From Actinomycetota bacterium (GTDB lineage Bacteria; Actinomycetota; Aquicultoria; Subteraquimicrobiales; Subteraquimicrobiaceae): a stretch of 48,840 nucleotides of DNA. The notes beneath the pieces were generated by a model, which worked only from the letters and a program-made list of their open reading frames with translations, was not told the origin of the DNA and searched no databases. Shown piece by piece: positions 36,356-48,840 of this stretch (positions within the stretch are counted from its first letter, which is position 1; each line of letters opens with the position of its first letter). The position numbers were made by a program, and so were the translations under genes. Where the stretch lies: the NCBI GenBank assembly GCA_030018275.1, contig JASEGB010000012.1:1-48840 (forward strand), written 5' to 3'.

Positions 36356-37120
36356 ATGCTAGCATTAGCTTTCGATACGGCTACCGATGCTTGCACGGTG
36401 GCCATAGGAACTGAAGATAAGCTTTACGGTGAGCTCACCATGTATGCCCCGCGTGCACACATGGAACGGCTCATTCCCATGGTGGACTATCTCCTTAAGC
36501 AGAGCGACTTTTCCATTGGTGACATCCGAGGACTAACCGTTGGATTGGGACCGGGCTCTTTTACGGGGGTGAGAATTGGGGTCACTACGGCCAAGATTCT
36601 TGCTCAGGCATTAAACCTACCTCTTGTGGGTATCTCGACATTGGACTGTTTAGCCTACCCCTTTACCTTTGGGGAGGAGCTAGTTTGCGTCGTTTTGGAC
36701 GCCAAGCGGGGTGAAGTTTACAGCGCAATTTATAGGTGTTTGGGTGGCAAGTTTGACCTCATTACTCCCTATCAAGTTATGTCCCCATGGGATTTATGTG
36801 CGAAATTGAAAGAATATAAGCAAAGGGTAGTCTTGGTGGGAGATGCACTATATCCCTACGGAGACCTGCTCAAAAATTCCTTAGGTTCCTCGGTGGATTT
36901 TGCTCCGCCGTGGCTTTGGTTCCCCAAGGCGTCGAATCTCATTGCTCTTGCTATGGATAAGCTTCTTGGGGGAGAGGGTAAAGAGATTTTCCAGGTAGTT
37001 CCCATTTATGTTCGTTTATCGGAAGCTGAGGGGAAGGTGGGACGAGCCCCGACGTGTCGGGGCCGGGCAGGCAGGGAAGGAAAGTTTTCCCCATGGAAAC
37101 CATTGAAATCTCCAGAATGA
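36356..37120 (+). CDS. tsaB: tRNA t6A biosynthesis protein TsaB with altered C-terminus
   Basis: TsaB is the non-catalytic partner of TsaD. MLALAFDTATDACTVAIG opens the ASKHA fold; GLTVGLGPGSFTGVRIGVTT is the family hallmark and LVCVVLDAKRGEVYSAIYR follows. ATG 36356 has AGGGGGAGAAG; the longer frame from 36257 is repeat DNA. After VPIYVRLSEAE, where TsaB proteins normally end, the frame continues through a palindromic repeat (GKVGRAPTCRGRAGREGK) and overlaps rimI by 28 nt, so the last 26-30 residues look acquired. Confidence 0.93.
   Translation: MLALAFDTATDACTVAIGTEDKLYGELTMYAPRAHMERLIPMVDYLLKQSDFSIGDIRGLTVGLGPGSFTGVRIGVTTAKILAQALNLPLVGISTLDCLAYPFTFGEELVCVVLDAKRGEVYSAIYRCLGGKFDLITPYQVMSPWDLCAKLKEYKQRVVLVGDALYPYGDLLKNSLGSSVDFAPPWLWFPKASNLIALAMDKLLGGEGKEIFQVVPIYVRLSEAEGKVGRAPTCRGRAGREGKFSPWKPLKSPE
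37039..37080. repeat. GC-rich palindromic repeat inside the tsaB 3' end
   Basis: GCCCCGAC (37046-37053) and GTCGGGGC (37056-37063) are perfect inverted arms. The preceding GGGACGAGCCCC and the GTCGGGG word also occur at 20003-20043. The following GGGCAGGCAGGGA resembles GGACGGGCAGGGA in rimI at 37331-37343. Confidence 0.7.
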
Positions 37121-37728
37121 CTTATATCGATCTTGAAAGCGTATGCGAGATTGAAAGGACCGTGTTTCCTAGACCTTGGACTCGATCCATGTTTGAGCAT
37201 GACCTTGCTCGATCGGGTTACACTTTCTATGTTGTGGCAAGGATTCTGAGTCCATCTACTGATACCCGCGCCCCCGCCAGCCGAGTGGGGCGAGGCGTCC
37301 TGAAGCACTGGCGAGCGAGCCTACAGGCCGGACGGGCAGGGAGAATAGTGGGATACGGCGGGATGTTACGCGTCGGGGGTGAGGGACGCATTTCAACACT
37401 TGCGGTGGATCCAGCCTATCGGAATCGTGGCATAGCGAAAGCTTTGATGCTCACCATGGCCAAATGGGCTATAAAGAGTGGGATTCAGTGGTTGACCCTG
37501 GAGGTAAGGAGGTCGAATCTCGTCGCTCAAAATCTTTATAAAAAATTCGGTTTTTATAAGGTGGCGGTAAGAAAGGGTTATTACTCGGACAACAATGAGG
37601 ATGCAATAGTCATGTGGACCGGAGATATCACTTCTCCTAACTATAAAAAGCTGCTGGAAAAAACGGGGCGAAGCCTAAATATTAATATAATTGAGAGAAT
37701 TGAAGGTCTCGTAGAAACAGACCTTTAG
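37093..37728 (+). CDS. rimI: Ribosomal-protein-alanine N-acetyltransferase RimI with internal insertion
   Basis: RimI acetylates the N-terminus of S18 and possibly other proteins. GNAT features are SVCEIERTVFPRPWTRSMFE, the acetyl-CoA loop LAVDPAYRNRGIAKALM, WLTLEVRRSNLVAQNLYKKFGF (in part) and a YYSDNNEDAIVM end. Between FYVVARI and GRIVGYGGM about 35 extra residues (LSPSTDTRAPASRVGRG and on) are read from GC-rich repeat DNA at 37247-37342, raising the length to 211 from about 150. The frame is kept. ATG 37093 overlaps tsaB. Confidence 0.9.
   Translation: METIEISRMTYIDLESVCEIERTVFPRPWTRSMFEHDLARSGYTFYVVARILSPSTDTRAPASRVGRGVLKHWRASLQAGRAGRIVGYGGMLRVGGEGRISTLAVDPAYRNRGIAKALMLTMAKWAIKSGIQWLTLEVRRSNLVAQNLYKKFGFYKVAVRKGYYSDNNEDAIVMWTGDITSPNYKKLLEKTGRSLNINIIERIEGLVETDL
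37247..37342. repeat. GC-rich in-frame insertion within rimI
   Basis: The insert is much richer in G and C than the surrounding gene and contains CGCCAG and CTGGCG inverted arms (about 37274-37314) and GCGAGCCTACAGGC, a fragment similar to ones at 22117 and 34081-34110. It encodes an Arg/Ala/Pro-rich loop absent from normal RimI. Confidence 0.6.
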
Positions 37729-37764
37729 GTCTGTTAGTTAGCGTAACAGGTCTAAAGACCTGTT
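37716..37764. repeat. Paired palindromes spanning the rimI stop codon
   Basis: AACAGACCTTTAGGTCTGTT (37716-37735) and AACAGGTCTAAAGACCTGTT (37745-37764) are two perfect 20-bp palindromes, related to each other and 9 nt apart. The first contains the rimI TAG stop. They could act as a bidirectional hairpin pair. Confidence 0.8.
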
Positions 37765-37801
37765 TGTACAGTTCTATCATTATCCATGTCCATGACTAGG
37801 G

Positions 37802-48465: not shown

Positions 48466-48764
48466 TGCCTGAGATAAAAAGAGTGGATCTGATTTTCAGA
48501 AAATTAGCCAACACCAAAAGTTATCTGAGAGAATTAGAAGAACTTCGCCCAAAATCGCTTCAGGAACATTTATCGAATCTCGAAAAGAAACGAGCCATCG
48601 AACGGCAAATTCAACTTGTGGTCGAATCGGTGATAGATGCGGGCGAAATTATTGTTATTGAACTATTTAAACAACCACCCAAAAATAGAAAAGAAGTGAT
48701 AATTAAATTGAAAGAGTTCAATGTAATCTCAAGAGAGCTTACTGAAGCAATGATCCAGCCATAA
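48465..48764 (+). CDS. HepT-like protein, apparently truncated
   Basis: Residues 1-95 match the first helices of HepT (DUF86): DLIFRKLANTKSYLRELEEL, KKRAIERQIQLVVESVIDAG and VIIKLKEFNVISRELTEAM. HepT proteins normally continue about 40 residues to an RxxxxHxY active site; here the frame ends in MIQP and a stop. The last 57 bp before this divergence are repeated 90 bp downstream, at the window end. The gene is either broken by a duplication or misassembled here. Without the R-H-Y motif no RNase activity would be expected. Confidence 0.7.
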   Translation: MPEIKRVDLIFRKLANTKSYLRELEELRPKSLQEHLSNLEKKRAIERQIQLVVESVIDAGEIIVIELFKQPPKNRKEVIIKLKEFNVISRELTEAMIQP

Positions 48765-48840
48765 GCTTGAGAAATAGAATTGTAAGTGATAATTAAATTG
48801 AAAGAGTTCAATGTAATCTCAAGAGAGCTTACTGAAGCAA
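48694..48840. repeat. 90-bp-offset direct repeat at the window end
   Basis: 48694-48750 is repeated without change at 48784-48840, where the window stops. The intervening 33 bp include the stop codon of the HepT-like gene. The repeat covers the coding stretch VIIKLKEFNVISRELTEA. It may be a real partial duplication or a contig-end artefact. Confidence 0.9.

Follow-up and report, generated by a model that had tools for sequence, protein, structure and literature searches.

How does rimI, in the genome of an uncultured member of the Actinomycetota, come to hold 96 additional nucleotides between two blocks of its coding sequence without losing its reading frame? The question arises from a stretch of 48,840 nt (contig JASEGB010000012.1 of assembly GCA_030018275.1, positions 1 to 48,840; henceforth the window), in which an earlier note had seen an in-frame, GC-rich repeat insertion splitting RimI and had likened it to the palindromic elements of Rickettsia. 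Our answer, which we hold to be very probable, is that a palindromic element, GC-rich and about 41 nt long, entered the codons of a turn in the ancestor of the genus, probably in two tandem copies, and that the resulting loop is now tolerated ballast.

The interrupted gene is rimI: its product scores 123.9 bits against the equivalog model TIGR01575 (cut-off 86.4), its neighbours are tsaB on one side and tsaD on the other, and the top match in the Protein Data Bank of its structural model, found by Foldseek, is E. coli RimI (5isv, E 6.7e-13), with the GNAT fold. The insert separates the FYVVARI and RIVGYGGM blocks and keeps the frame, which is open in all three species of the genus. In 53 of 60 aligned RimI proteins, the interval between these blocks measures 2 residues; three proteins have 3 residues there, one has 8 and three have 32. 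The last three are the members of the genus, and none of the 57 proteins from outside it has such an interval. The claim of an in-frame insertion therefore holds, as does its size of 96 nt, although the span of 37247-37342 given for it was one base off (37246-37341) and 30 residues (90 nt) are gained on balance rather than about 35. The insert (LSPSTDTRAPASRVGRGVLKHWRASLQAGRAGR) has a G+C content of 70% vs 45% for the remaining gene, is rich in arginine and contains a run, SRVGRGVLKHWR, that is identical across the three species. The rest of the domain, including the acetyl-CoA motif region, matches normally and is unaffected by the insert, again as anticipated. An AlphaFold2 model based on the 60-sequence alignment has a mean predicted local distance difference test (pLDDT) score of 88, with most of the core above 90, while residues 56-79 fall below 50 and are flanked by strands at 44-51 and 84-94. 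In the model, the insert is thus a floppy surface loop lengthening the turn between strands 2 and 3, the placement that the earlier note had suggested.

We dated the insert using the two available congeners of this genome (G000), namely Ca. Subteraquimicrobium carltonvillense UBA2594 (G001) and a third species (G002). Both carry the insert ungapped (97% and 87% protein identity, respectively), and it is absent from two genomes of the same order and from every other aligned relative outside the genus. Because the congeners share the insert and relatives beyond the genus are without it, the sequences date its gain to the genus ancestor or to a time not long before; an ancestral loop was rejected on the same grounds. 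In the comparison of G000 with G002, nonsynonymous (dN) and synonymous (dS) divergence are 0.043 and 0.206 in the RimI core (dN/dS about 0.21), and 0.168 and 0.188 in the insert (dN/dS about 0.89); 9 of 30 residues differ in the insert vs 16 of 175 elsewhere. These values indicate that the core is under purifying selection and the insert nearly neutral. They also bear on an alternative that we consider unlikely, namely that the loop was recruited for a function, such as binding the ribosome, a partner or RNA, and that selection maintains it as a basic loop on the surface. Such a role would fit its constant length in the three species, the invariant SRVGRGVLKHWR and the abundance of arginine, but dN close to dS, the excess of residue changes and the lack of confident structure in the model argue against it. 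Conservation of the same residues in close relatives had been named beforehand as grounds for doubting an insertion; the congeners do carry the insert, but its near-neutral evolution leaves that objection only partly in force.

Where, then, did the additional codons come from? A search seeded with the GC-rich element at the tsaB-rimI junction uncovered a dispersed family. Its 21-nt core CCCGCCTRCCGGACGGGCAGG, with as many as three mismatches permitted, has 11, 14 and 16 occurrences in the three genus genomes and one in G003; read backwards, the core is present in none of these genomes. Alignment of full copies gives a 41-nt GC-rich consensus close to CCTGCCTRCCGGCAGGCCCGCCTRCCGGACGGGCAGGCAGG that folds as a single 15-bp hairpin (-29.1 kcal/mol, z -3.7). 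Pair counts in the hairpin are compatible with the fold, but covariation is little above that of shuffles, as expected for a DNA palindrome that decays once inserted. Searches with a covariance model gave 16, 16 and 14 matches (E up to 1) in the genomes of the three genus members. With the threshold set at E 0.001, three of 36 genomes of the class match, these being the genus members, and none of the other 33 does; with a threshold of 1e-4, matches among 247 sampled genomes of the phylum are confined to genus members. As a control, covariance model R1 reached a best E of 0.18 on 628 kb of unrelated loci. No viral contig of IMG/VR matches one exact degenerate pattern of the element, and Rfam has no family above threshold at the rimI locus. 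The consensus contains a stop in one reverse frame only, and which frame this is depends on variable bases.

Indeed, more than 12 other genes of the genus hold the palindrome in frame, and all three genus genomes contribute copies. By Pfam, the element-bearing open reading frames encode MnmA, topoisomerase I, PcrA/UvrD, UvrA, ComEC, a geranylgeranyl-reductase-like enzyme, a class-III aminotransferase, a metallophosphoesterase, an M54 peptidase, leucyl-tRNA synthetase (in the editing domain), a XerC/D-type tyrosine recombinase, a DUF2229 protein, an FhaA-like protein and a DUF364 protein; in G003, the element lies within a MobB open reading frame. Between them, these copies use all six reading frames (PAYRTGRQ, GPPAGRAG, ARLPDGQA, LPARPAGG, LPVRQAG and CPSGRRA), and uvrA of G001 holds tandem copies. 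Empty sites were compared for mnmA and topA. MnmA has 13 extra residues in G002 and is empty in G000, G001 and G003, while the TopA copy of G002 is absent from G003 and G004, is represented by a shorter stretch in G000 and coincides with an assembly gap in G001; both empty sites are too diverged for a target-site duplication to be read. At the end of tsaB, the insert is 21 nt longer in G001 than in G000, where the G001 version holds a good copy of the 41-nt palindrome (49 bits), and 22 nt shorter in G002. The family is still present and species-variable in many genes and at gene ends. In the G001 assembly (L068, L206), runs of N start or stop exactly at element copies, as if hairpins broke assembly.

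We compared the RimI insert with this family using a weight matrix built from 11 element copies, the RimI site excluded. Among about 97,600 sites in the window, positions 37300 (14.9 bits) and 37304 (11.7 bits) rank first and second, and the next site scores -1.9. When G000 and G002 were treated as two drifting descendants of one copy and the better base of the two was taken at each position, the joint score was 39.2, whereas 5000 column shuffles of the insert peaked at 25.3. No site in the window scores higher by cmsearch than the RimI site (14.7 bits, E 0.25); its orthologue in G002 reaches 15.3 bits (E 0.06). The 3' half of the insert is thus, as judged from these scores, most likely a decayed copy of the 41-nt palindrome. 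Local alignment of the 5' half to the consensus, compared with shuffles, is suggestive only (p = 0.017 in G000 and 0.004 in G002), and this half is probably a second tandem copy; with an element of about 41 nt, two copies account for the insert more readily than one. The word "repeat" in the original description therefore applies to a part: BLAST of the whole 96 nt against this genome and the two congeners finds no second copy, and it is the 3' half that matches a dispersed family.

Several results weigh against descent from the element. The RimI site is weak by itself in the covariance model, a weakness we ascribe to decay of the palindrome there, so that its rank and the joint score carry the case; the best-scoring register shifts by 4 nt when the joint comparison replaces G000 alone; the insert folds no better than shuffled sequence (z +1.0); BLAST of the genomes with the 5' half returns no other copy; and neither a readable target-site duplication nor a mobilising enzyme can be tied to the element. 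Y1_Tnp genes, of the REP-associated tyrosine transposase (RAYT) type, are present in G000 and G001 and were not found in G002; RAYT was rejected as the mobiliser, there being no good element copy within about 1.5 kb of these genes. The poor single-site covariance scores and the faint resemblance of the 5' half would also suit an insert that grew in place, as GC-rich sequence slipped or was duplicated within a turn that tolerates it; the likeness to the palindrome would then be compositional. We regard this as quite improbable: shuffles that keep composition fall far below the joint score, no remaining site in the window exceeds -1.9, and copies lie in frame in other genes of three separate genus genomes. 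As an observation on the insert itself, 13 of the 36 nt in its 3' part (37306-37341) differ between G000 and G002, far above the synonymous sites of the gene, an excess that may reflect conversion or replacement among copies.

We propose that the palindromic element moved as DNA and that, in the common ancestor of the genus, it would have inserted into rimI at the codons of the turn, probably as two tandem copies. The insertion would have been tolerated because the element is nearly free of stops and landed in a permissive turn; the gene would thus have remained open, with selection still acting on the enzyme. The loop would then have drifted almost neutrally, losing the palindrome's ability to fold. 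We infer that the cell produces the longer RimI in active form. That the inserted codons are instead skipped, by translational bypassing or excision at the RNA level, to give a RimI of normal length is very unlikely in our estimate. Yeast mitochondrial genes contain hairpin elements that are bypassed, according to PMC6649704; but the frame, the stop-free state and the length of the insert are kept in three species despite 14 substitutions, whereas the tsaB-tail element, where frame hardly matters, varies by 22 nt between G000 and G002, and the structural model retains a normal GNAT core with the loop present. An assembly error or a pseudogene is negligibly probable: the genomes are metagenome-assembled and some G001 copies lie beside runs of N, but three separately assembled species share the insert, which disposes of the assembly error that the earlier note had named as a possible refutation, and the RimI core is under purifying selection.

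The element is of a known kind, resembling the Rickettsia palindromic elements (RPE), reportedly described by Ogata et al. in 2000 and 2002; new are its short length, its distant lineage and the absence of a single reading frame. RPE lie in frame in housekeeping genes, where they are tolerated and decay (PMC2229807, PMC10969869, PMC6649704), and the case of Rickettsia guanylate kinase, as summarised in PMC2229807, shows that a protein with such an insert can be made and active. The 41-nt palindrome behaves likewise: it is dispersed in genes and gaps, has long hairpin potential and occurs in frame in unrelated genes, housekeeping genes among them, where it is tolerated and decays. By contrast, RPE measure about 100-150 bp (105-150 nt in the described families), some three times the length of the element, and the RPE reading frame yields one conserved peptide, whereas the element is read in all six frames, is GC-rich and resides in an uncultured actinomycetotal genus, that of Ca. 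Subteraquimicrobium carltonvillense. Thus the likeness proposed at the outset stands for an in-frame palindrome in many genes but not for membership of a described Rickettsia family, from which length and reading frames set the element apart.

Other short palindromes resemble it in part. In-frame coding palindromes outside Rickettsia, in Wolbachia and Methanocaldococcus jannaschii, are cited in PMC2996958 and PMC2229807; they occur in other organisms and are likened here by description, not by sequence. Repetitive extragenic palindromes (REP) and GTAG- and CGTC-tagged palindromes are hairpins of 20-40 nt with many copies, some within genes (PMC3733652). The element shares these traits, and Y1_Tnp genes exist in two of its hosts, but its consensus ends in neither an unpaired GTAG nor an unpaired CGTC tag, and no good copies flank those genes. 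Miniature inverted-repeat transposable elements (MITEs) with coding potential (ERIC/RU, BOX, Coxiella QMITE) are about 100-200 bp long, with terminal repeats and often target duplications. They too are non-autonomous short inverted-repeat elements able to fuse in frame, but neither terminal repeats nor target duplications are established for the element of about 41 nt. Similar GC-rich coding palindromes may occur in other candidate phyla, and a literature search found no paper naming this genus.

In-frame coding palindromes have been described mainly from Rickettsia and Wolbachia, where small host-bound populations offer an easy explanation, and from one archaeon; here, a much shorter element in a subsurface genus of Actinomycetota behaves in the same way. 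A broader reading, toward which we lean slightly, is that a self-spreading palindrome of about 40 nt, open in nearly every frame, goes on equipping essential enzymes with small disordered loops across an uncultured subsurface lineage of Actinomycetota, as a minimal coding palindrome independent of intracellular life. The three species stand at different distances, and for one housekeeping gene or more an empty site is seen, so that fresh, ageing and decayed inserts form a natural series, which would allow tests of how proteins tolerate random loops and of how an element spreads without a visible enzyme.

Table 1. Features at and around rimI (positions in the window).
Feature	Position	Strand	Remarks
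GC-rich palindromic insert, tsaB-rimI junction	37040..37077	+	gives TsaB a tail
rimI	37093..37728	+	211 aa; ATG 37093, stop 37726-37728; TIGR01575 and open reading frame
RimI insert, residues 52-83	37246..37341	+	replaces 2-residue beta2-beta3 turn; net +30 aa
Probable second tandem copy, decayed further, 5' half of insert	37263..37296	+	same orientation; local alignment to consensus
Decayed 41-nt palindrome copy (most likely), 3' half of insert	37300..37344	+	weight matrix, cmsearch, joint G000/G002 score
Second dispersed palindrome family, unrelated, not GC-rich	37710..37770	+	spans rimI end and rimI-tsaD gap

Other repeats lie nearby and elsewhere in the window. The palindrome of the tsaB tail, CCCCGACGTGTCGGGG (L041, L044, L050), recurs in G001 beside tRNA-like sequences, within a longer shared stretch. 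The second family listed in Table 1, a palindrome of about 60 nt, folds at -25.7 kcal/mol (z -5.2) and has matching places in all three genus genomes (29, 26 and 23); G002 is without its first half, and RimI ends earlier there. Short GTTCACCGTTCAC / GTGAACGGTGAAC repeats are numerous and in both orientations, at 564, 3805, 6783, 7712, 9379, 15964, 20198, 34352, 44084 and other positions, and the end of the window (48694-48840) holds an exact direct repeat of 57 nt with a spacing of 90 nt.
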